This document shows positions 1,529-17,726 of a stretch of 42,267 nucleotides of DNA, piece after piece. Each line of letters starts with the position of its first letter. Position 1 is the first letter of the stretch. The stretch is from Verrucomicrobiota bacterium (GTDB lineage: Bacteria > Verrucomicrobiota > Verrucomicrobiia > Chthoniobacterales > UBA10450), in the NCBI GenBank assembly GCA_003218305.1, contig QHMY01000082.1:1-42267 (forward strand). The letters are read 5' to 3'. The notes beneath the pieces were generated by a model. It ran no database searches. It was not told the origin of the DNA and saw nothing but the letters and a program-made list of their open reading frames with translations. The translations under genes were made by a program, and so were the position numbers.

Positions 1529-2464
1529 TTAAAACGCGAGCTGCGCCCCGAAAATCAAGCTCGGCGTCACCACATTGTATTGGCGCGCGCCGACACTCGA
1601 GAAGTTGCCGATATAAGAGGCAGTCGCCGCCAGCACCAAATATTGAGTCGGCATCCAGCTCACCGACGCACCCACCGTCACATTGAAATCGTCCCGGTCG
1701 CCCGCTGGATCATGCGTGTAATGCTGCACCTCGGGCCGGGTGAATCCGCTCAACTGAACCGTTTCGGAAAGATTATAGATGGCGAGGAAATTGAAATAGC
1801 CGGCGAAACGATCGGACACTGAAGGATCGCCGTGCCGCCAGTAGGTGCCGCCCGTGATCCCGAGATTGACCGGAGTGCTGCCCAGCGGCATCAGGTGAGT
1901 GACACTGGCGTTCAGAAATCCGTACCGGTAAAACTCATCGACGGAGGAATGCGGTGCGGTCAGCCGGCTTAGCGAGTAGGAAGTATTGCAAAACCACGTG
2001 TCGTTTGCGTTGAGGTCGTACTTCAAGTCGAGAAGCAAAGTCTGTGAATTGAAATCCAACGAGCCGAATTCGCCGTAGCGAAACCAGTTCTGATCGAAGA
2101 CCAGCGTCGGGGTGAAGTTCCGGGTGGCATAAGGCACGAACGCGGCCCCGACCCGGCCGTTCCAATAAAAATCGCTCTGCTCGCCGTCCGGAACCAGAAA
2201 GGCGTTGCTGGTGAAATTGAGTGATTGCGTGGTGAAGAAGGTAAACATTTTCGGCCTCGGCTGGCGTGAGACCAGGCTGATATCGCCCAGCTCGGAATCG
2301 GAAATGGCCTCCGGTTGTTCCTCATTGTTCAACACATTTTGCTGCCGCGCCCTGGCCTGCTGCTGCGTTTCCACCCGCACGTCCTGGGCGAAACTCTGCG
2401 CCACGGCCAGGAACGAACCGAGGAGCAGAAAAGCTGTTCGATTATGCCAGATGGTGAAGCTCAT
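1529..2464 (-). CDS. Putative outer-membrane beta-barrel protein
   Basis: 311 aa, signal peptide (AFLLLGSFLAVAQSFAQ), alternating aromatic/polar strands, terminal Phe (SLIFGAQLAF). Confidence 0.65.
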   Translation of the reverse strand: MSFTIWHNRTAFLLLGSFLAVAQSFAQDVRVETQQQARARQQNVLNNEEQPEAISDSELGDISLVSRQPRPKMFTFFTTQSLNFTSNAFLVPDGEQSDFYWNGRVGAAFVPYATRNFTPTLVFDQNWFRYGEFGSLDFNSQTLLLDLKYDLNANDTWFCNTSYSLSRLTAPHSSVDEFYRYGFLNASVTHLMPLGSTPVNLGITGGTYWRHGDPSVSDRFAGYFNFLAIYNLSETVQLSGFTRPEVQHYTHDPAGDRDDFNVTVGASVSWMPTQYLVLAATASYIGNFSSVGARQYNVVTPSLIFGAQLAF

Positions 2465-2487: not shown

Positions 2488-3804
2488 TTAACGGCCGGGA
2501 AATTGAACAACCACCGAGTTGCTGTTCTGCCCGACCGCCAGCGCTCCGCTAATTACCTGCACTTGCCCATTGTAAAAGACCCGGAGAGTAAAGGGATCGC
2601 TCCCATTCGGAGAATTAAAATTGTTCACGAAAAACGTGTAGAGACCCGCGAGAGGAATTCCGTTGATCGAGATGTTTTCCACTCTCGTTCTCGGCGGAAT
2701 GTCGATCGTGCCCCCGCGGTTATCGTGGTCCAGCAGGGCGAGGGCGCGGCCGTTGTTGAACCTGACGGAGACGTTGCTGAAAGAAACAACCTGCCCCGTG
2801 GGCAGGGTGAGATACAAATCGAGGTCGGCTGAAGTATTCCAGATCAGTTGGGCCTGGATGATGCCGGTGCTGCCGACCGGAAGAATTCCATTAGGATTCT
2901 TGGTCTGAAGCTGCGCCACGGTATCGAGCGGAACCACCTGCCCGACCAAGGCCATGTTAATCGGTCCTGAGGACACTCTGACGTTTGTCTGGTCGACGAA
3001 GCCATGGCGGGCATCGGCTTCGTATTGGGCGATCGCCTGGTTCACCTCGACCGCGTTTGGCAACGGCGCGTTGAACCCCTTGATCAGCGGCGAAGTCTTG
3101 ACGAAGCGCGGAATGTCGAACTGGACCACGCGCGGCATCCCATCCGGCCGGGCAATCAGCATCTCCCCGGCACCAAGCCGGAACGGGGTGGTGTGCTCGT
3201 GGCCGGAACTATCGGTCCAGCGCGATCCGCCATGGATCTTTCCTTCGAGCATGCCGACAATCGTCGTCGTTCCTTTGCCCTTGGAATGACCGGTGCCCTG
3301 TACCGGCGCGGTCGAGATAAAGCCGGTCGAGCCGGTGATCGCGCCGGATATTGCCCCGGATTGAAGCTGGATCGGCCCCGAATTCTTCGGCTTGGAGAAG
3401 AGCACCGCGCCTCTGGTGAAATGCATCGCCCGTGCCGCCGCGTCGAAGGAGAAAATCGAGTTCGATCCAAGACGCGCCAGGGTGAGATCAGCGAACTCGA
3501 GTTCAGCGCGCGATTCCGTTCCGGTCCGCACCACGTTGTCTGGTTGTACCACCGCGCCTTGCGCGGCCGGGCGCGCTTCGGCCGAGAGGTTGGGCGCGAG
3601 GGTGACCACATTATGTTTCTCGCGTACCACCGCCTGCGATAGATCCGCTCCCTGCGCCAGGCTGGCCACGGAGAGGGAACTCGCCACCATTAGAAACGAC
3701 AACCCCCGCTGGGGGGAGCGAAAGATCGAAAGGCGGGCGATAGCCCACCGGCAGGGCCCAGTAAACATGGCCCTAATGGCACCTTGCCCCCCCGGGTTAG
3801 TCAA
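2488..3804 (-). CDS. FecR-domain secreted protein with DUF2135-like C-terminal domain
   Basis: FecR-like core (VVQPDNVVRTGTESRAELEFADLTLARLGSNSIFSFDAAARAMHFTRGAVLFSKPK); C-terminal LIWNTSADLDLYLTLPTGQVVSF...LDHDNRGG...GLYTFFVNNF. Exact start uncertain. Confidence 0.75.
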   Translation of the reverse strand: MTNPGGQGAIRAMFTGPCRWAIARLSIFRSPQRGLSFLMVASSLSVASLAQGADLSQAVVREKHNVVTLAPNLSAEARPAAQGAVVQPDNVVRTGTESRAELEFADLTLARLGSNSIFSFDAAARAMHFTRGAVLFSKPKNSGPIQLQSGAISGAITGSTGFISTAPVQGTGHSKGKGTTTIVGMLEGKIHGGSRWTDSSGHEHTTPFRLGAGEMLIARPDGMPRVVQFDIPRFVKTSPLIKGFNAPLPNAVEVNQAIAQYEADARHGFVDQTNVRVSSGPINMALVGQVVPLDTVAQLQTKNPNGILPVGSTGIIQAQLIWNTSADLDLYLTLPTGQVVSFSNVSVRFNNGRALALLDHDNRGGTIDIPPRTRVENISINGIPLAGLYTFFVNNFNSPNGSDPFTLRVFYNGQVQVISGALAVGQNSNSVVVQFPGR

Positions 3805-3862
3805 GTTCTTTCCTATGATAAAAGGTTCGCGTTCCTGATCGCGCGTCCGCTATCAAAGGCAG

Positions 3863-6001
3863 GTGCGCATCTTACGCTCCCGGCGTTTCGTCCACGCGGC
3901 GATCGCGCTCGCGGTTTTCCTCGTCGTTGCCGGCCTCTACCGCTTGGAAACCGCCCACCGCGGCACCCGCATCCTGTTAGACCTGGAAAACGGCTTCCGC
4001 GACAGCATCCTCACCGTCGGTGGCCGCCATAATCCCGTCGACCCCAGGCTCGTCTTCCTCGGGATCGACAACGCCTCCCGATCATTGACCAGCCTCGATC
4101 TCCAAAATCGCGACCTCGCACCCGACAGCGCCGAGTATCGCGCGTTATCGCTGATGCTCGAGCCCTGGCCCTGGTCGCGCGAGGTCTATGCGCTCCTCTG
4201 CGAACGTTTGCTGACGGCCGGCGCGCGTGCCGTGGTCTTCGATATCAGTTTCCCGACCCCTAACCGCGGCGACGACGCCCTCCAGGAGGTCATTCGCCGT
4301 TTTCCCGACCGGATCGTGCTCGGCAGCAATCTGGTCCTGGAAACGATCGGACCCGGACAACAGGCTTGGACCTGGAGCATTCCGTCCACCAGCATTCTTC
4401 CCGACTCGTCTCCCGAACATCCATCAGTCGGCTACGTAGTTTTCAATTTCTGGGAATTTGATGCGGTTATCCGGCGTGCCCAATATCAGGCCACGCTCGA
4501 GCAGTTGCAGGGGCTTGCGCCCTCTAATGAGCAGGCGAAAACCGCGCCCGCCTCTCTCGGATTTCGCGCCGCCAGCAAGCTGGCTCCGGTCCAGCTCGAC
4601 CACCCTTTTCAACCCAAACTGTTTCGCTTCACCGGCCCGCCTTACACCTACCCGGCCATTCCCGTTTACCAGGTCTTTACTTACTGGAAGCAAAACTTCG
4701 ACGACGGCGCGGCCTTTAAGGACAAGGTCGTTATGGTCGGCGCGGCCGGAAGCATCTTTCAGGATGAGAAGATAACTCCGTTCGGCCTGATGCCTGGGCC
4801 TGAACTGCATTTGAACGTAATCAACGCTCTTCTGCGCAATGCGTTCCTTCGGGAAATCCCTCCCTGGGCCAGCGACCTTCTCATCGCCTGCGCCGTCCTC
4901 GCCGCCTGGGGCCTCACCGTTCTCGTCCGCAAGACCTGGGTCCGCTTCGCCGCCTTCTTTCTCTTGGTCATCGCCTACCTGGTTGCCGTCAGGATTGTTC
5001 ACGACCGCGCCGACACCATCCTTCTCGCGATCCCTCCCGTCCTGGCGTTCGCGATCGCCGGGCTCGTCTCCTTTATCTACGATTTCACCCACGAAACCCT
5101 CGAGAAACTCCGAATCCGCCGCACCCTCGAGGCCTACGTGTCGAAGGACGTCGTGCGCGAAGTGCTTGATAACCCGGAGAGCTATCTCAGCAAACTCGGC
5201 GGCGAACGCGAGAGGGTCGCGCTCATCATGACCGACCTGCGCGGTTTCACCACCATGTCGGAAGAGATGGACTCGACCCAGCTGGTCGCCCAGCTCAACG
5301 AATATCTCTCCATCATGGTCGACGACATCTTCTCCCGGCGCGGCTCCGTCGATAAATTCATCGGCGACGCCATCCTGGCCGTCTGGGGCCACGTCAAAAG
5401 CGAAGGTCCCGCGCAGGATGCCACCCTGGCGGTCGAAGCCGCTTTGCTCATGCGAGAGAGCCTCCGCCGCTTGAACGCCGATTGGGAAACTCGCGGACTG
5501 AAATCCTTTCACATGGGGATTGGGGTAAACTACGGCGAAGTCATCTTCGGCAATATCGGATCGTCCCGAAAGATGGAGCCGACTGTCATTGGCGACGCCG
5601 TCAATACCGCGTCGCGTCTCGAAGGACTCACGAAAGACTACGGTCGCGACCTGCTCATCGGTGAAGCCGCCGCCGATCTGATCGGCCAATCTTTCAAACT
5701 CCAGTTCGTCGACAAGGTCACGATGAAAGGGAAAACCAAACCGCTCCGGATTTACTCAGTCGTTTCCCGCGGCGACGAACCGGTCGATCCAAAGATGACC
5801 GCTTATCTCGAAGCCTACAACCTGGCCCACGCCAGCTATTCCGCTGGCAACTTCAAGGAAGCGAAATCTCTATTCGAGAATTGTCTGCCCCACTCACCCG
5901 ACGATGCGCTGGTCCGGATGTACATCGACCGTTGCGCCACCCTGATCGACCGCCCCTCCGAAGGCGCCTGGACCGGCGTTCATATCGCCGACCACAAATA
6001 A
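3863..6001 (+). CDS. CHASE2 domain-containing class III adenylate/guanylate cyclase
   Basis: GTG start; N-terminal TM, CHASE2-like periplasmic domain, TM cluster, then cyclase domain: MTDLRGFTTMSEEM, DKFIGDAILAVWG, PTVIGDAVNTASRLE, VTMKGKTKPLRIYSV. Metal Asp, Lys/Thr specificity and Asn/Arg residues are present. Confidence 0.93.
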   Translation: MRILRSRRFVHAAIALAVFLVVAGLYRLETAHRGTRILLDLENGFRDSILTVGGRHNPVDPRLVFLGIDNASRSLTSLDLQNRDLAPDSAEYRALSLMLEPWPWSREVYALLCERLLTAGARAVVFDISFPTPNRGDDALQEVIRRFPDRIVLGSNLVLETIGPGQQAWTWSIPSTSILPDSSPEHPSVGYVVFNFWEFDAVIRRAQYQATLEQLQGLAPSNEQAKTAPASLGFRAASKLAPVQLDHPFQPKLFRFTGPPYTYPAIPVYQVFTYWKQNFDDGAAFKDKVVMVGAAGSIFQDEKITPFGLMPGPELHLNVINALLRNAFLREIPPWASDLLIACAVLAAWGLTVLVRKTWVRFAAFFLLVIAYLVAVRIVHDRADTILLAIPPVLAFAIAGLVSFIYDFTHETLEKLRIRRTLEAYVSKDVVREVLDNPESYLSKLGGERERVALIMTDLRGFTTMSEEMDSTQLVAQLNEYLSIMVDDIFSRRGSVDKFIGDAILAVWGHVKSEGPAQDATLAVEAALLMRESLRRLNADWETRGLKSFHMGIGVNYGEVIFGNIGSSRKMEPTVIGDAVNTASRLEGLTKDYGRDLLIGEAAADLIGQSFKLQFVDKVTMKGKTKPLRIYSVVSRGDEPVDPKMTAYLEAYNLAHASYSAGNFKEAKSLFENCLPHSPDDALVRMYIDRCATLIDRPSEGAWTGVHIADHK

Positions 6002-9180: not shown

Positions 9181-9894
9181 TCACTCCCCTCGTTCTCGCA
9201 ATCGTGATCGAATCTCGACAGAAGCGCTTTGCTTCCCTGCGTTTGGCGGCAGCTCGCCAATGATTGCCGGCCGCGGCCGTGGCCTGCTGCCGGAAACGCG
9301 CGGAGTGACCACTTGAATGGTGGGGCCGTACGCGAATCCCTTGCGATCAGAACCGGAGTTGCCCTTCTTGCGCACCCAATGATCGCGCCGCATTCGCACC
9401 CAGGCGGTGCCTCCAATCTTCCTGTTCTCCTCACCGTCCCAAAGAAGAATCAGGACGTGGCTGTCACGCGCGATCAGCTCTCCCACTTTGGCGTACTGTC
9501 GCGTCCGATTCCGCGTTCCGGCCTTTGCCGCCATTGGAATCTCCCATCGAGATTTGGCCCTCGCCAGGAGCGCGCGAAATTCCGCCAGCGATTTTGCAGT
9601 GATAAAGTCTCGCTCGTATTCAGCCTGCTCCATCGGCAACGGCACGATAAGGTCGATCCCGGATGCCAGGGCCACTTCCGCGGCCAAGCGATCGGCTCCC
9701 TCCGCCAGAGGAGTCAGGAGCTGAAATGGAGTGTGGGGATAGGCCGCGCGAAAAGATGAAAACACGCGTGAAAGCTGTTTTCGTAATGTCGGGATACTAC
9801 GGGCCACCAAATCGCGGTGCCCGCTAACCCCGAAGACCAGCGGCGGTTGCTGGTCGGCTCGCTCGCCGCGTCGGTTTGTGTTTCCAGCCTTCAC
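9181..9894 (-). CDS. SLOG-like (TIR/LSDAT superfamily) protein, apparently short
   Basis: PPLVFGVSGHRDL...TPFQLLTPLAEGADRLAAEVALASGIDLIVPLPMEQAEYERDF...VLILLWDGEENRKIGGTAWVRM...GPTIQVVTPR. Confidence 0.65.
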   Translation of the reverse strand: MKAGNTNRRGERADQQPPLVFGVSGHRDLVARSIPTLRKQLSRVFSSFRAAYPHTPFQLLTPLAEGADRLAAEVALASGIDLIVPLPMEQAEYERDFITAKSLAEFRALLARAKSRWEIPMAAKAGTRNRTRQYAKVGELIARDSHVLILLWDGEENRKIGGTAWVRMRRDHWVRKKGNSGSDRKGFAYGPTIQVVTPRVSGSRPRPRPAIIGELPPNAGKQSASVEIRSRLRERGE

Positions 9895-9998: not shown

Positions 9999-10292
9999 AT
10001 GTTTAGTTCTACGCCCGAGACATCTGCCAGGATCTTCCCCCCAACCGATGAAGAATTGCCGGCCCTTTCGCTTTGGACGTTTGCGCTCGGCATCCTTGCA
10101 CTGCTGACTTTCGGGCTTACCTCGGTGCCTGCAATTATTTGCGGGCACCGGGCGATCGCGGACGAACGCCAGTCGAATAAGGGATCGTTAGGGCGATCCG
10201 TCGCCCTCACTGGGCTGGTAATCGGATATGTCGGTGTCGCGCTCCTGGCGACATGGATCATCGTCGCGGCAAAACTTCTCGCGATGCCCTAG
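9999..10292 (+). CDS. DUF4190-like small membrane protein
   Basis: 97 aa, two hydrophobic segments: LSLWTFALGILALLTFGLTSVPAIICGHRAIADE...SVALTGLVIGYVGVALLATWIIV. Confidence 0.7.
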   Translation: MFSSTPETSARIFPPTDEELPALSLWTFALGILALLTFGLTSVPAIICGHRAIADERQSNKGSLGRSVALTGLVIGYVGVALLATWIIVAAKLLAMP

Positions 10293-10397
10293 CGACGCGG
10301 CTAGTCATCGCCTCCCGCACTGCTCGAATGCCTGACGGCCATTCCGGAAAATCGGCGCTCCGGCATCACCCTCGCCCGGCGTCCTGCGCTTCGCGGC

Positions 10398-13300
10398 CTA
10401 CCGCCAGTCACCCATGAGAACAAATGGCGCCCAGTAAAGTGGACGCGCGAACTTGGGGTTCTTCAGCAGCTTGATTTCGGCACTCTGCAAGGCTGCCGCT
10501 TTGGACTGACCGGAGGCCAGCTGGCGATAAAACTCGACCATGAGTTCCTTCGTGCTTTCGTCGCCGACGCTCCAGAGGCTGGCCAGCACGGTCGTAGCGC
10601 CGGCGCTCGAAAAAGCCTCGGCTAGGGTGGTGATTTCGCCTCCATCCGGATCCTTGTCGCCCAACGCCGATTCACAGGCAGACAACGTTACGAGAGTCAC
10701 CTTCCGTAGGGGAAGATCCCACACCTCGCCCACGGTCAAACGGTCCTGGCCCGGCGCCACGGCCGTCGCCAGTTGGATATAGCTATCGGCCGGAGTCGTC
10801 GCGTTGAGAATCCCATGAGTAGCAAAATGAACGATTCGCTTGTTCAACATTTGCTCGGTGTTCAGCGCCACTTTCGTGACTTCCCCGCCGGAAAGCACTT
10901 CGGTCGATGGAAAAACCTGAGCAATGGCTTTCACCTCCGCTTCGGCGGCGGGAAGGTTCGCCCCGGTCGGATTCCCGAAGGCAACCATGCCGTCGGTTGA
11001 TTTTTCGTTATCGGGCGGTTGCACAACGCTCATCACGTCGGCCGCGGTCAGGTAGACGATCTCTTTGTCTTCGATCAGATATCGCAACGCACCGTCGGCC
11101 TGCTTTTTCGCGAGCGCCTGCATTGGCAGATAGAAGAGAAGCTGATTTGGAATGAATGCGATGGTCTTGATCTGGGCCAAGTCCGATTCAATTGGTGAGA
11201 TGAGCAGATCGTAAAGAGCGGTCAGGTTTTTGGTCAGCGGCCCTCCCGATTCCCCCGTGGTGATCTGCTTGCGCACGGTCTTGATCTTCTTCCAAAGATC
11301 CTCCGGCTTGCCCGGCGCAATCACGATCTTCAAACTCTCCTTGCTCACGAGAAAGATGTAGAGCTGCTCACCGAGCGGCGCGTACTGGATCAGCATGACG
11401 CCCGCCGGAATGCTTCGCTGCGTTTCCTTGAGCGCCTTGGGATTCACGGTCATGAACTTTTCCCAGTTCGGGTTCGAAGACTTGATCTGTTCCACCACGC
11501 GGCGGAATTCTCCCTGGGTAGAGGCGACCACTGTCTTCAGATTTTCGATCTTGCCCTTGTCGCGCTCCGTTTCCGGCTTGGCTTCTTCAGTCCGCAGCTG
11601 CGAAGAAGCGGCATTGAGTTTCGTTTCCAAACCAGCCGCGCGATCCAACAAGCCCTGCATCGTCTTGTCGCCACTCTTCATGCTGGAGAGTCGGAGCGAC
11701 TCCTGCAGCTTTTTTGACTTGGCCCGGTTCAGGTAATCAAAAGCCTCATCCGCTCGGTTCAGCTTGATCAGGATCCTCACGATCCGCTCGTACGGACGGT
11801 AATTGCGTTTCACGTCGGCAAACGTCGTTTCCGAGGCGGCGGTGGCGCGCACGCTTTCGACCAGCTTCACCGCTTCCTTAAAAGATTCCAAAGCCTTCTC
11901 GTTCTCTCCTTTTGCTTCAAATAATTCCCCTTCTGTGCCCAGTGTTCCCATCCGGTCACTCACCGAACCTGTCTTGGCGTCGGCCCCTTTCGCCTCGTCG
12001 ATCAACGTTCTCGCCTCATCGAGTTTGTTTTGTTTCACGCGGATCGACGCAAGGGCCCGGGCCGAACCAGAGACCGCGCTGAAGTTGCCCGTCTTGCGAG
12101 CCAGGAGAAGCGCTTCGCCGCCCCGGCTTGCAGCCTCATCGAGCTTGCCTTCCTCGTCGGCGATTACGGTCAGGAATTGCGTGGCCGAAACCACGCTGCT
12201 CAACTTATGAGCAGCCGCAAAGATCTGCCGGGCTTGCTCGAGCAACTGGCGCGCATTCGCATTATCGCCCTTGCTGAAAGCAAGATCGGCGGCCTGAAGC
12301 AACGATTGCGCCGTCCAGTCATCCTGCCCGATCTGGCGCTTGATGGCGATTGTCTCATTCAACTCCTTCACGGCCAGGTCGACCTCTCCACTCTCGGCAT
12401 GCAAATAGGCCAGACCGCCCCACACCCTGGCCCGTATCCGAGCACGGAAAATCTCGAAGACGTTGATATACCCGCCCTTGGGAAGATCCTCGCCGACTTT
12501 GCGAGCCATCTCATAATACGAAACCGCTTTCTTCAGGTCCCCTTCTTCCTGGCTGATGTCGCCAAGATTCAACAAAGCCATGGCTTGCGACATGCGGTCC
12601 AGGGCCAGCTTCATGTCCCGCGTCTGCGCTTCGGTCTCCTCATGCTTGGCCAGCTCGTCCTTCGTCATGGCGGCCTTCCGTTCCGGCGTCATGAATCGGT
12701 CCTCGGTTAAATCCTTCTGCCTGACCGCGGCCGAGGCTTCGATGCTAGCCAGGGCTTGCTGATAATAATCCCGCGCCTTGGGCAAATCGCCCACGTTGAA
12801 GGCGTACATTCGCGCCAAGGCGGAAAGGCTTTCTTCCAGTTTTCGCTCGGGCATGCTCTCCGGCAGAGCGCGGCGAAGCTCCAGCGCCTCAAGGCCGCTC
12901 TTCTCCGCCTGGTCAAAAAGAGCCAGATCCGCCTGGGCATTCGAAACCCTCTCCAACGCCGTCGCGACGTGCGCGATCTTTTGATTTACCTCTTCAACGG
13001 GTGCCTTCACCTTCGTGAGATAACTCAATTCCAAGCGCCGGATCTCCAGCGATCGCGTTGTATATTTGAGCAGGTTTTCTGCGTCGTTGTTGTCCCGGGC
13101 CAGCTGCTCCAGTGTCGAGAGAGTGTTGAAACGCGTCAGATACCGATTTTTTTCCCAGCCGTGAATCAGCGTTCGCAGGATGGCCTTCTTCGACTCCTCA
13201 GCCTTCGCAAGCTGGTCCCCAAGGGTCTTGATTTGCCCATCTATCTTAGCGTCCTCTTCCACAGCGCCAGTCCGCTCGTATTCCTCCCAGTAGGCTCGCC

Positions 13301-13649
13301 CGGCGGCATAACTTTCGTCCTTGAGGTCCGCACTCTTCGCAAACCAGGTCGCGGCCTCCTCAAATTTGCCGGAATCGAACGCGATCCAGGCGATGTCCGA
13401 CGCAACCTGCATGGCGTTTCTGGCCGCATCGGCTCTTTCCTTTGTCTTATCTTTGGCCGCAACCCGAGCGGCGTCGGCTTTCTTGAATTGGGCTTCAAGC
13501 TGAACGCGGTCAGGCTTTGAGTTGGGGGCGGCTGAGGGGCTCTGTTCTTCGCTGCGAAGCTGGCCCGCAGCTGCCAGGAGGCATGCCGCTACAGCCACGA
13601 TGGCCACCGAGAGCCTTCCAGATATTAAAACGGTATAACTATTTCTCAT
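10398..13649 (-). CDS. Exported TPR-CHAT domain protein (caspase-like protease fold)
   Basis: N-terminal signal/lipoprotein-like segment (SVAIVAVAACLLAAAG), multiple TPR motifs, C-terminal CHAT with RIVHFATHGILN and VTLSACESALG (His/Cys dyad), AGATTVLASLWSVGD, WAPFVLMGDW. Confidence 0.93.
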   Translation of the reverse strand: MRNSYTVLISGRLSVAIVAVAACLLAAAGQLRSEEQSPSAAPNSKPDRVQLEAQFKKADAARVAAKDKTKERADAARNAMQVASDIAWIAFDSGKFEEAATWFAKSADLKDESYAAGRAYWEEYERTGAVEEDAKIDGQIKTLGDQLAKAEESKKAILRTLIHGWEKNRYLTRFNTLSTLEQLARDNNDAENLLKYTTRSLEIRRLELSYLTKVKAPVEEVNQKIAHVATALERVSNAQADLALFDQAEKSGLEALELRRALPESMPERKLEESLSALARMYAFNVGDLPKARDYYQQALASIEASAAVRQKDLTEDRFMTPERKAAMTKDELAKHEETEAQTRDMKLALDRMSQAMALLNLGDISQEEGDLKKAVSYYEMARKVGEDLPKGGYINVFEIFRARIRARVWGGLAYLHAESGEVDLAVKELNETIAIKRQIGQDDWTAQSLLQAADLAFSKGDNANARQLLEQARQIFAAAHKLSSVVSATQFLTVIADEEGKLDEAASRGGEALLLARKTGNFSAVSGSARALASIRVKQNKLDEARTLIDEAKGADAKTGSVSDRMGTLGTEGELFEAKGENEKALESFKEAVKLVESVRATAASETTFADVKRNYRPYERIVRILIKLNRADEAFDYLNRAKSKKLQESLRLSSMKSGDKTMQGLLDRAAGLETKLNAASSQLRTEEAKPETERDKGKIENLKTVVASTQGEFRRVVEQIKSSNPNWEKFMTVNPKALKETQRSIPAGVMLIQYAPLGEQLYIFLVSKESLKIVIAPGKPEDLWKKIKTVRKQITTGESGGPLTKNLTALYDLLISPIESDLAQIKTIAFIPNQLLFYLPMQALAKKQADGALRYLIEDKEIVYLTAADVMSVVQPPDNEKSTDGMVAFGNPTGANLPAAEAEVKAIAQVFPSTEVLSGGEVTKVALNTEQMLNKRIVHFATHGILNATTPADSYIQLATAVAPGQDRLTVGEVWDLPLRKVTLVTLSACESALGDKDPDGGEITTLAEAFSSAGATTVLASLWSVGDESTKELMVEFYRQLASGQSKAAALQSAEIKLLKNPKFARPLYWAPFVLMGDWR

Positions 13650-13682
13650 TAAGCTATTTTGAAAACTTTATATGTATATTTT

Positions 13683-15797
13683 CTATTTTACTTTCAGCTC
13701 GTAGATCCCCGTCCAATTCGATGGGGCCGCCGCGATTAACTCCCGGCATCTCTCTGCCATCAGCTTGCTCGGCTTGTCCTGCGCTTCCCGCTCCAACGCG
13801 GTAAACTTCCCTTCCGCCTCCGCAAATTCTCCCCGCTCATAGTCGACGAAGGCTGAACCATATTCCCGGGCGATCTCCTCGAAATTGGCCGGGCCGAACG
13901 GATGCTTCACCTCCAACAGTTCCAGCGGGAGAGTCTTGCCTTTGACGACAACCCGATCAACCACTCGCGCCTGCGGCGGTGCCGACACCTTCTCATACGC
14001 TTCGCGGGTGATCAGGAACAGCACCCCATAGTGCTTGGTTAACGACTCCACCCGCGCCGCGGAGTTGATCAGATCTCCCACCAGACCGTAATCCAGCCGT
14101 TGGGCCGATCCCTTGTTTCCGATCAAAGCCGTTCCGCTGTGAAGAGCCACGCCATAGTGAAAAAGCGTTTCCACCCGCGGATCCAATTTCGGACGCAGCC
14201 CCTCCATTCCCTCAATCAGAGAGAGCGCGGCGCGAAAGGCCCGATCAGTCGCGTCCGGTTGCGGGTCCGGGGCTCCCCAATAACTCAGGAATTGGTCGCC
14301 GAGAAAATGCTCCATGCTGCCGTCTTCGGCCATGATCGCCCGGGTCTGCACCTCGAAGACCTGATTCAACAGCTGGAACGTGCCGCCGGGCCCCAGCGTC
14401 TCAGCGATCGCAGTAGAGTTGCGCAGGTCCGTCAGAAGGAGGGTCAACTTCGCCTGCTGCGGTTCCATTGATCCCGGGTTCTTCAGGACGTGCTCCATGA
14501 TGCGCGGCGAAAAATAGAGGCCCATGGTGGCGCGAAGTCGCAGGCGTTGCATGAACTCATAGCTCTGCCTCCGTCCCAGTTCGGCTAACGTGATCAGGCT
14601 CCACGCTGCACTCACGGTCACCAGACCGGGCACCCAGTTTGTCTTGATGATGAGGGCGGCGCTGAGAACGCCGGCCAGCGCCACGAAACCAATCCAGAAA
14701 AGGAGAAGCGGCCATGCCCCGCGAAACAGCTTCGTCGCGGCTCCAAAAAGAACGAGCGCAAGAATCGCGAGCGCATCGAGCCAGCGCGGAGTCCGACGTA
14801 ACCAGTTACGCTGGATCAAATCGTTCAAGGCGGTCGAATGCAAAACAACCCGCGGTTGATTCGCGGCCAATGAAGTCGTGCCCACGTCCCCCAGCCCGGC
14901 TCCGTAGTAGGAAACGATCACGATCGCGTTCGTCAGCGGTTGCGCCTTCGTCTGGCGGCTCGCCTCATGGAGCTCGCTGAGCTGCGCCATGTTGTAATGC
15001 CGGAACGCGGCCGGACCAGAACCAGACCACGGGCTGCGATAATTCAGGAGAACGGGATCCAGCTTAAGCTCGCGCGGCTCGATCGTCGTAAAGTCGCTCG
15101 AAATTTCTTCCCAACGCGCAAACCCTCTCCCCCCAGCCTTGGGAAAGGCAACGCCCTTCTCCCAATCCACATCTCGCCAGGCCAGATAACAAGCGAGTCC
15201 AAGCGACGGCTCATGTTTCCCTGCAGAGCCGTGGACATATTCATAGTGACGCAAAGCTCCGTCTCCATCCGCTTGGACGTTGATCAACCCCGCCGGCAGA
15301 ACTCTTTCCCGAAAAGGAAACGACCGAATTCGCTCTTCCTGTCCGCTGTCCGCTGAAGGCAGGAGCGCTTCGGCGAATATCACAGTGCGGTTCTCGCCTC
15401 GGACGCGCTCGACCTCTTTCAGGATCGGGTCCGCCATGGCCTGGTCCCCGCGCCCGAAGACAACATCGAATGCCACGACCCGAGCACCGAGATCGATCGC
15501 CTGCCGAATGATGGTGGCCGCATGCTGATACTCCAGTTCGAGTGTGGGCAGCTTTTCCAAATCCTGCCGAGTGATGTCGGCATGAACAATGTTGGGGTCG
15601 GCCGGAGGAGCCAACCCGTGTTCGTAACGCCAGCGCAAGACCCGCCCGAGCCATCGCATTTCCAGAGGCTCGATCGGACTTCCCGCCAGTAGAACCCAAA
15701 GAGCGGCCAGACCGCAAATCGCCAGGAGGAGCGGCCAGGGCGATCTCAACCACACCTGCTCGTCGGCCGGATTTGTCGGGACGGTGTTACCAGCCAT
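13683..15797 (-). CDS. CHASE2 domain-containing class III nucleotide cyclase (second copy)
   Basis: N-terminal TM + CHASE2-like region, three TMs, cyclase domain LLLTDLRNSTAIAET, EHFLGDQFLSYWG, DYGLVGDLINSAARVE, VVVKGKTLPLELLEV. Confidence 0.9.
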   Translation of the reverse strand: MAGNTVPTNPADEQVWLRSPWPLLLAICGLAALWVLLAGSPIEPLEMRWLGRVLRWRYEHGLAPPADPNIVHADITRQDLEKLPTLELEYQHAATIIRQAIDLGARVVAFDVVFGRGDQAMADPILKEVERVRGENRTVIFAEALLPSADSGQEERIRSFPFRERVLPAGLINVQADGDGALRHYEYVHGSAGKHEPSLGLACYLAWRDVDWEKGVAFPKAGGRGFARWEEISSDFTTIEPRELKLDPVLLNYRSPWSGSGPAAFRHYNMAQLSELHEASRQTKAQPLTNAIVIVSYYGAGLGDVGTTSLAANQPRVVLHSTALNDLIQRNWLRRTPRWLDALAILALVLFGAATKLFRGAWPLLLFWIGFVALAGVLSAALIIKTNWVPGLVTVSAAWSLITLAELGRRQSYEFMQRLRLRATMGLYFSPRIMEHVLKNPGSMEPQQAKLTLLLTDLRNSTAIAETLGPGGTFQLLNQVFEVQTRAIMAEDGSMEHFLGDQFLSYWGAPDPQPDATDRAFRAALSLIEGMEGLRPKLDPRVETLFHYGVALHSGTALIGNKGSAQRLDYGLVGDLINSAARVESLTKHYGVLFLITREAYEKVSAPPQARVVDRVVVKGKTLPLELLEVKHPFGPANFEEIAREYGSAFVDYERGEFAEAEGKFTALEREAQDKPSKLMAERCRELIAAAPSNWTGIYELKVK

Positions 15798-16492
15798 CAG
15801 GGAGCTGGAGAATCCTTGGCCGCGCCTTCACTGGAGAGAATCAACACGCCCGGACGATCGTCGGCAAAATCGATGCTTTGCGCGAACTGACGCCACGGAA
15901 ATGTCGCGTCTGCGCCTCCGCGGAAAACGCCACCCAACTCAGGCTCGGTTATCGGGGCCTGGTTGACTTTCTCCTTCTCGCTCGTGATGCGGCCAATCAA
16001 CTCGCGCAGCTTGTTCACCTGCATCGCCAGAAGACGCTCGTCGACTTTGGGAGCCTGCATCGCCGCGACCAGCTTTCGCGCTTCCTCGACTTCCTTCGAA
16101 CTGGGAGGCAGGAAGAGGACGAACAAATCGAACGGCGCCTTGGTTCCAGACCACTCCCAGGTCACCGGGTCTTTGGGCAGCTGAACCTCCTCAAATTCAG
16201 CCGCCACCTCCGAAAATTGTGGCCGCCATCCGTTGGCGAGCTTTCCATCCTTGGTCAAAGCAGCCAGCAACACGACGCATTTGTCGCTGGCATCGACGTG
16301 CGCTCTTACGGTCGAGCCCGGCCTCGCCGCCGTCGCTGACGGCTTGAATGGTTCTTCCTTGGCCGACGATCCGGAATCGAGGATCGAGATGCAGGCCCTC
16401 CCCTGCGGTTGATCCGAATCGGCCGCCATCAAACGGCCTGAACAAAACAAGAGGGCGAAAACGCCTGCCAGCAACAAGAAAGCCTTACTCAT
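15797..16492 (-). CDS. Small secreted protein, DUF4384-like
   Basis: Start MSKAFLLLAGVFALLFCSGRLMAA (signal peptide); ARPGSTVRAHVDASDKCVVLLAALTKDGKLANGW resembles DUF4384. Stop overlaps the cyclase ATG by one base (TGATG). The longer listed ORF to 16711 is probably an over-extension. Confidence 0.65.
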   Translation of the reverse strand: MSKAFLLLAGVFALLFCSGRLMAADSDQPQGRACISILDSGSSAKEEPFKPSATAARPGSTVRAHVDASDKCVVLLAALTKDGKLANGWRPQFSEVAAEFEEVQLPKDPVTWEWSGTKAPFDLFVLFLPPSSKEVEEARKLVAAMQAPKVDERLLAMQVNKLRELIGRITSEKEKVNQAPITEPELGGVFRGGADATFPWRQFAQSIDFADDRPGVLILSSEGAAKDSPAP

Positions 16493-16664
16493 AGAGACAC
16501 GTAATGGATAAACGCACTTTGTTGACGAACCAACACGGCTCTTTGTGCGGAATTTCCATGAATTCCGATTCTTCCCATGAACCAAAGAAACGCCAGTCAA
16601 AACCATGCCGATGTTTCCTCGCCATGTCCGAGGATCGTGCGAATGATTAGCGGATTCTGCGCGA

Positions 16665-17726
16665 ATGAACGAAACGGTCTTTACCACCATCGCTCTTACC
16701 GGGTTCGGCATTGCCTTTTTTCACGCGGCCATCCCGACCCATTGGCTTCCGTTCGTCATCACGGCCCGGGCGCAGGGATGGAACCGGAACAAGACGATCG
16801 GCGTGACGGCGCTGGCCGGCACCGGGCATGTCCTTTTCACAGCGTTTCTCGGCGTGCTCATTGCCTGGTTCGGAATCGCGCTGCACGATCGGATCGGCGT
16901 CTGGTTCCATTTGATCGCCGGGGGCGCGCTCTTGCTCTTCGGGCTCTTTTACGTTTATCGGCAGCTCAGCGGGACCGGTTGCGGCCATAGCCATTTGTTT
17001 GGCGGGCATTCGCATCACGGAACAACCCCTCACCTTCACGTGCACGAAAAGGCGGCTTTGCAGCCCGGTCCGCACGGCGGAGCACTGATCGAGACCGGGA
17101 ACGGTGTGGTGGAGATTGCCATCGTCAAAGAAGCTGAAAACGCGAAGTTCCGCCTCTACCCGGTCCCGTCACCGCAGCGACCGGTTGCCACCGTGCCGGC
17201 GCCGAGTATGACCCTCGAAACCATTCGCCCGAGCGAGGAGCGGCAGATTTTCTCCTTTCAAAGTGCGGATGGCTGCCTCGTATCCACGGAGACCATTCCG
17301 ATGCCGCATGAATTCAGGGCGGTTCTGAACGTACCGCATGGAAATCATGTCCACGCTTATGAGACGCATTTTCATCAGCCGGCGGAGCAGACGTCACCAG
17401 AAGAGACAATCGAGATTGTCGCGCCCCAGCGTGGCCGCGTCTCAGATCGCCTGGCCGTCACCAGCTTGCTGGCGTTGCTCACCTTTTCGCCCTGCGAAAG
17501 CTTTCTTCCGGTTTATGTCTCGGGCGTCCGTTACGGATGGATTGGATTCGCCCTCCTCACTGCCGTCCTCTCCATTGCGACGGTCCTGGGAATGGTCATC
17601 TTCACCTGGCTCACACTCAGCAACCTGGAAAAACTTAACCTTCGTTTCCTCGAGAAATACGAAAGCGGAATCATCGGTGGTTTGCTCTGCACGCTGGGAA
17701 TTTTGATAATTGTCCTGGAAAACTAG
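16665..17726 (+). CDS. His-rich polytopic membrane metal transporter-like protein with internal soluble domain
   Basis: TM segments at both ends (FFHAAIPTHWLPFVITARAQGW; LLALLTFSPCESFLPVYVSG), His clusters (CGHSHLFGGHSHHGTTPHLHVHE), central domain GPHGGALIETGNGVVEIAIV. Confidence 0.6.
   Translation: MNETVFTTIALTGFGIAFFHAAIPTHWLPFVITARAQGWNRNKTIGVTALAGTGHVLFTAFLGVLIAWFGIALHDRIGVWFHLIAGGALLLFGLFYVYRQLSGTGCGHSHLFGGHSHHGTTPHLHVHEKAALQPGPHGGALIETGNGVVEIAIVKEAENAKFRLYPVPSPQRPVATVPAPSMTLETIRPSEERQIFSFQSADGCLVSTETIPMPHEFRAVLNVPHGNHVHAYETHFHQPAEQTSPEETIEIVAPQRGRVSDRLAVTSLLALLTFSPCESFLPVYVSGVRYGWIGFALLTAVLSIATVLGMVIFTWLTLSNLEKLNLRFLEKYESGIIGGLLCTLGILIIVLEN

Follow-up and report, generated by a model that had tools for sequence, protein, structure and literature searches.

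The window analysed here is the whole of a 42,267-nucleotide (nt) stretch of contig QHMY01000082.1, from an uncultured soil bacterium with a draft genome of 3.6 Mb. Its genus falls among the uncultured Chthoniobacterales/Spartobacteria, and several relatives come from palsa samples. (Relatives within the Chthoniobacterales are cited by genome code, Gnnn, or locus code, Lnnn.) Three consecutive genes form a trio (Table 1): SML, for a small protein; CYC, for a CHASE2 protein with a class III nucleotide cyclase domain; and a gene for a caspase-like TPR-CHAT protein. Their products are probably, in turn, a secreted small protein, a membrane receptor producing a signalling nucleotide, and a caspase-like protease that is exported.

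The initial annotation described three genes on one strand, the first two overlapping by 1 nt and the third following after about 33 nt, and that layout was confirmed: CYC ends at 13683 and TPR-CHAT starts at 13649. Six relatives display similar junctions, with SML/CYC overlaps of 1-4 nt and CYC-CHAT gaps of 10-33 nt; at locus L045 the latter gap is about 1 nt, counted from the conserved start. A search of 10250-16800 found nothing promoter-like, and nothing resembling a terminator was found between CYC and CHAT. Short junctions that lack internal sites of either kind are consistent with an operon.

Table 1. Positions of the trio, its domains, and other genes in the window
Feature	Position	Strand	Length, evidence or remark
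SML, small, probably secreted protein	15797-16492	-	231 amino acids; first of the trio in transcription order
TGATG stop/start overlap, SML/CYC	15795-15799	-	base 15797 common to both genes
CYC, CHASE2-class III nucleotide cyclase	13683-15797	-	704 amino acids; open reading frame and domain matches
CHASE2 domain of CYC	14739-15704	-	residues 32-353; E=1.9e-25
Class III cyclase domain of CYC	13935-14456	-	residues 448-621; E=4.5e-9
TPR-CHAT, caspase-like protein	10398-13649	-	1083 amino acids; signal-peptide-like N-terminus; open reading frame and domain matches
CHAT domain of TPR-CHAT	10407-11228	-	residues 808-1081; dyad H945 and C992; E=7.2e-66
DUF4190-like gene	9999-10292	+	opposite strand to the trio
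SLOG/DprA-like Rossmann protein	9181-9894	-	no signal peptide; motif resemblance and weak fold matches
Set of second CHASE2 cyclase, FecR gene and following gene	2488-6001		cyclase of K/T type, divergent from the FecR gene
Same set, second stretch	1529-2464		
Flanking gene	16665-17726		in G021 and G023 also

SML has a signal-peptide-like N-terminus according to a home-made rule (not SignalP), which was positive in most homologs and negative in both the SLOG-like neighbour and nearly all cytoplasmic controls. The mature part contains two cysteines, C34 and C72, invariant across 12 homologs, a pattern that would suit an extracytoplasmic disulfide. An AlphaFold2 model depicts a beta-rich domain followed by a helical hairpin; Foldseek comparison of this model with the PDB gave no match below E 0.02, and Pfam offered no convincing family for SML or its 11 homologs. 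The label "DUF4384-like", first attached to the small protein, had to be dropped: DUF4384 (PF14326) matched none of the 12 homologs and nothing in the host genome. Identity with DUF928 (PF06051) was also rejected, there being no Pfam match and an hhalign profile comparison probability of 0.1%. A diverged SML paralog, 36-37% identical, lies directly downstream of CHAT in G024 (L044:6038-6694).

CYC contains hydrophobic segments at residues 24-45 and 340-389, which fit a CHASE2 domain outside the membrane and a cyclase inside. This is the layout of a CHASE2 receptor cyclase: CHASE2 between N- and C-terminal membrane segments, followed by a class III cyclase domain. The catalytic equipment of that class is conserved: D457 and D501 for metal binding, N578 and R582 for the transition state. 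The substrate-specifying positions, checked by alignment to the solved cyclases 3r5g (K/T) and 2w01 (E/G), are H497 and G571 instead of Lys and Thr/Asp. The His/Gly pair rules out a canonical adenylyl cyclase, which has Lys plus Thr/Asp. In guanylyl cyclases Glu occupies the first position, whereas the second varies and can be Gly (PMC4215837); for CYC as a canonical guanylyl cyclase, then, G571 is compatible and H497 is not. Because the pair fits neither rule, the product is not predictable from the CYC sequence. All seven genus orthologs carry His/Gly, as do G529 and G530; in G471 the pair is Lys/Gly. His/Gly turns up again in genus g214 (L084-L086), in CHASE2 cyclases whose neighbours are FecR and beta-barrel-like genes, and so marks a wider clade.

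A second CHASE2 cyclase in the window, with the ordinary K/T pair, is itself divergent from a FecR gene (Table 1). A homolog of the gene after FecR (L087:12784-13725) weakly matches a beta-barrel porin. This set is kept in G021, G023, G026, and G028, and recalls the pairing of CHASE2 cyclases with NsrA in Sinorhizobium meliloti.

The third protein joins a TPR region to a CHAT domain with both His and Cys. The dyad proposed from the motifs HFATHG and LSACES withstood comparison, as both residues are invariant across the seven orthologs; peptidase activity is predicted. The N-terminus is signal-peptide-like by the rule used for SML, C992 is the sole Cys after the signal-peptide region, and the genus orthologs have few Cys residues apart from the catalytic one. 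These N-termini and cysteine patterns support the predicted export of both CHAT and the small protein.

The TPR and CHAT halves of the seven orthologs yield conflicting trees. In the CHAT half, where identity runs from 84-97% window by window, G022 and G024 pair with full support, a grouping rejected both in the TPR half (p-AU, from the approximately unbiased test, 3.6e-4) and in CYC. Recent gene conversion in CHAT was considered and rejected, since third codon positions are near saturation; the intragenic exchange is therefore old. Several TPR-CHAT genes stand in a row on one 41-kb contig elsewhere in the order (L113, on G533:C273).

The full trio, in the same order and strand arrangement, is present in seven of the eight genus genomes, and a scan of 83 genomes of the taxonomic family found CHAT and CHASE2 side by side in seven of those eight. 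The eighth, G020, lacks both CHAT and SML and has a single CHASE2 match; the trio is thus either complete or missing. Its shape is kept despite differing flanks: among the loci read, the flanking gene at 16665-17726 (Table 1) and PfkB are common only to the window, G021, and G023. Across the family, eight of 34 CHAT hits lie less than 5 kb from a CHASE2 hit, where a rough calculation predicts about 0.2. Of the eight, seven are orthologs from one genus, and independent cases accordingly weigh more; further independent adjacency was found elsewhere in the order. The adjacency of CHAT and CHASE2 is far beyond chance, and the initial annotation, which would have yielded to a lack of conservation in relatives, survives on this point. 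From the single window, and nothing more, the locus might be read as a chance neighbourhood of three unrelated genes. Conservation over three taxonomic families of the order, along with the parallel trio types described below, contradicts that idea and leaves it a next-to-negligible probability.

Searching with a profile of 12 SML sequences located SML in 12 of 213 genomes of the order, representing four genera and three families. All 12 have SML adjoining a CHASE2 protein, and 11 have a CHAT gene on the contig that carries SML. The SML-CYC-CHAT order on one strand is kept in G471. Outside the order, SML was absent from a 388-genome sample of the phylum, and none was found on plasmids. Among 84,980 species genomes only genus members were recovered, with search patterns drawn from the genus alone.

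The inner domain of the SML-linked receptor is exchangeable: a cyclase in ten genomes, a TIR domain in two. In the latter, G531 and G532, SML is partnered by a CHASE2-TIR fusion (E about 4e-11 and 7e-11 for TIR_2), and two CHAT genes face it. The fusion genes (L094:4311-6032 and L100:8837-10588) lie beside those for SML and CHAT.

A parallel trio contains DUF928, another small secreted family, which matches strongly in 11 genomes of the order and partially in G008. The order CHAT-CHASE2 cyclase-DUF928, with DUF928 downstream, occurs in ten of the 11; the DUF928 contig of G487 ends inside the cyclase gene. Beyond the order, Gloeothece plasmid pP742401 carries CHAT, DUF928, and CHASE2-HATPase genes side by side, and Planktothrix and Nostoc plasmids carry DUF928-CHAT pairs and CHASE2-DUF928 pairs. 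A Nostoc cluster with CHASE2 and DUF928 has been mentioned in passing (PMC5587647). SML and DUF928 are unrelated yet keep the same company, which suggests that both act functionally beside CHASE2 and CHAT. Neither this parallel trio nor the TIR exchange nor the unusual substrate residues of CYC figured in the initial annotation.

The best reading of this locus is that a CHASE2 receptor takes its input from an exported protease and a secreted partner, through a putative cleavage or activation step. CYC would be the receptor, with CHASE2 on the outer side of the cytoplasmic membrane and the class III cyclase on the inner side, as topology and family knowledge predict. SML and TPR-CHAT would be exported to work in the periplasm beside the CHASE2 ectodomain, a location suggested by their signal peptides, Cys patterns, and conserved linkage. 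Presumably, the TPR region of CHAT senses damage or foreign protein, rendering CHAT active. The most likely input to the receptor would then be cleavage by active CHAT of SML, or of an SML/CHASE2 complex, switching the receptor's inner domain. Output would be a cyclic nucleotide of unspecified base in this bacterium, and would come from TIR in two relatives. Having a receptor with a swappable inner domain, the module would convert an extracytoplasmic proteolytic event to an interchangeable output. That the operon is such a three-part envelope signalling unit, joining a proteolytic event outside to an interchangeable output inside, we judge to have about equal prospects of being right and wrong on the sequences at hand.

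Several observations weigh against this proposal. CYC, with its His/Gly pair, might be weakly active or inactive. The SML model is of only moderate confidence (mean predicted local distance difference test score, pLDDT, 72). Gene order varies: CHAT is divergent in G530 and convergent in G531 and G532, and in G529 the SML-CYC pair lies on a 7-kb contig without CHAT. Finally, exported-type TPR-CHAT genes without CHASE2 neighbours are common in the order and occur also in cyanobacteria, so CHAT may have a wider role.

The varying position of CHAT bears on the principal competing model, in which SML and CHASE2 together form the receptor, SML serving in the periplasm as an inhibitor or as a co-receptor that binds ligand. 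CHAT, an executioner or quality-control protease belonging to the same response to stress, would act downstream, in the envelope, after the receptor has fired. SML-CHASE2 adjacency, without exception in the 12 genomes, is stricter than CHAT placement, and the SML/CYC overlap in the genus is the closest coupling of the set. However, an exported CHAT would have no obvious route by which to receive a cytoplasmic nucleotide signal. Moreover, most SML genomes have CHAT immediately after CHASE2, and both trio types keep a CHAT gene. We regard this model as doubtful, albeit the foremost rival to a protease acting upstream of the receptor.

The abundance of exported TPR-CHAT genes apart from CHASE2 also favours another view: that CHAT is a TPR scaffold in envelope stress or cell division, and that the three genes share regulation only, with no proteolytic input. 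HetF of Anabaena, the founding CHAT protein, sets an example: it is found in the divisome, interacts with FtsI, and is predicted to cross the membrane once (PMC8406250). A scaffold sits poorly with a His/Cys dyad that is invariant in seven orthologs, and with the assembly of the same three kinds of component in two trio types; we consider it unlikely.

On the downstream side of CHAT, the window has of such neighbours only the SLOG-like gene, with a DUF4190-like gene on the other strand. The SLOG-like protein resembles known folds in Foldseek searches (ShosA, probability 0.98; DprA, 0.90), although E values are only 0.03-0.06 and the model has a mean pLDDT of 63. A SLOG-like gene is near the trio in five of seven genus genomes, and its product is a possible member of the system. 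Several relatives have a longer series downstream of CHAT, of which the window has only the SLOG-like gene: SLOG-like, TPR-S/class III cyclase, CobW_C, S8 subtilase, GAF, and sigma-factor-like genes. In further neighbours the relatives differ: a DUF4062-TPR gene in G021; TIR, patatin, and SLATT-type genes in G022; and an nSTAND1 gene upstream in G024. Such neighbours hint at a possible link to nucleotide-based conflict systems. No Cas gene was recognised among neighbours in the loci read, in which no search was aimed at Cas7-11/gRAMP.

The trio might be seen as an anti-phage or cell-suicide system like CBASS, Pycsar, or Thoeris, with its nucleotide read by the nearby SLOG protein. This would accommodate the replacement of cyclase by TIR in two relatives, the conflicting trees of the two CHAT halves, and the relatives' complement of SLOG, SLATT, TIR, patatin, DUF4062-TPR, TPR-S-cyclase, nSTAND1, and S8 subtilase genes. 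However, the sensor and protease are predicted to face outside, the neighbours differ between genomes, and the window has the SLOG gene only. Membership in Pycsar itself was rejected: PADLOC matches to PycC are unspecific, and weaker than those of ordinary K/T cyclases in the same genomes. A defence role of this kind appears very unlikely.

Two further observations concern the downstream genes. Loci L044-L046 share a cassette of GAF, S8 subtilase, CobW_C with a Cys/His-rich tail (e.g. DSEEHDCCHH), TPR-S-class III cyclase, and SLOG genes. GAF and S8 genes are also near the CHAT gene of G530, which belongs to another family.

If extracytoplasmic proteolysis does feed the receptor, caspase-like proteases, best known inside cells, would be tied to outside-in signalling in bacteria. 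The trio would also provide a clean genetic unit in which to study what feeds CHASE2 receptors, a matter unsettled for most organisms. Exchange of cyclase for TIR on the same receptor, with the same partner, suggests that a signalling output and one of the immune type can stand in for each other. More tentatively, and with the chances against it, one may envision an undescribed class of modular envelope surveillance, in which an exported caspase-like protease and either SML or DUF928 gate a CHASE2 receptor with an interchangeable effector: noncanonical cyclase, TIR, or histidine-kinase-type ATPase. In some genomes this would stand beside a cytoplasmic nucleotide-sensing and protease module (SLOG, TPR-S-cyclase, GAF, and S8 subtilase).

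The open literature yielded nothing that describes a CHASE2 and CHAT trio, or a CHASE2 protein with TIR output. The locus is thus composed of known parts, in an arrangement for which no description was found there, and its output is interchangeable. The nearest likenesses are the cyanobacterial CHAT/CHASE2/DUF928 sets and the Chthoniobacterales DUF928 trios, all of which bring together a TPR-CHAT protein with a signal-peptide-like N-terminus, a CHASE2 membrane protein, and a small secreted protein encoded by adjacent genes. They differ in having DUF928 for SML, in gene order, and in output: the Chthoniobacterales trios have a cyclase of K/T type, the Gloeothece set a HATPase.

For the catalytic domain of CYC, the closest solved relatives are Synechocystis Cya2 and Pseudomonas aeruginosa CyaB (3r5g); we take PDB entry 2w01 to be the former, a guanylyl cyclase. 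At the second specificity position CYC and Cya2 both have Gly, whereas the first is His in CYC, Glu in Cya2, and Lys in CyaB.

Craspase (Csx29) of type III-E CRISPR systems has the same TPR and CHAT architecture, with a His/Cys dyad. Csx29 acts in a CRISPR RNA-guided complex, whereas the CHAT protein in the window looks exported, and similarity between the two is very weak (E 0.03-0.06). The contrast with this cytoplasmic protein, drawn in the initial annotation, is fair, yet it does not make the locus special: exported-type TPR-CHAT proteins are ordinary in the order and occur in cyanobacteria too, and export alone is therefore not remarkable.

Finally, the S. meliloti CHASE2 cyclases CyaD1, CyaD2, and CyaK perceive a plant protein only with the help of NsrA, a protein of the outer membrane (PMC13001267). 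Like CYC in the proposed unit, these class III cyclases with CHASE2 require a further envelope protein. The S. meliloti accessory is a beta-barrel, and the passages of that source covered here contain neither CHAT nor SML. Dependence on NsrA provides a precedent for CHASE2 cyclases that rely on a separate protein of the envelope.

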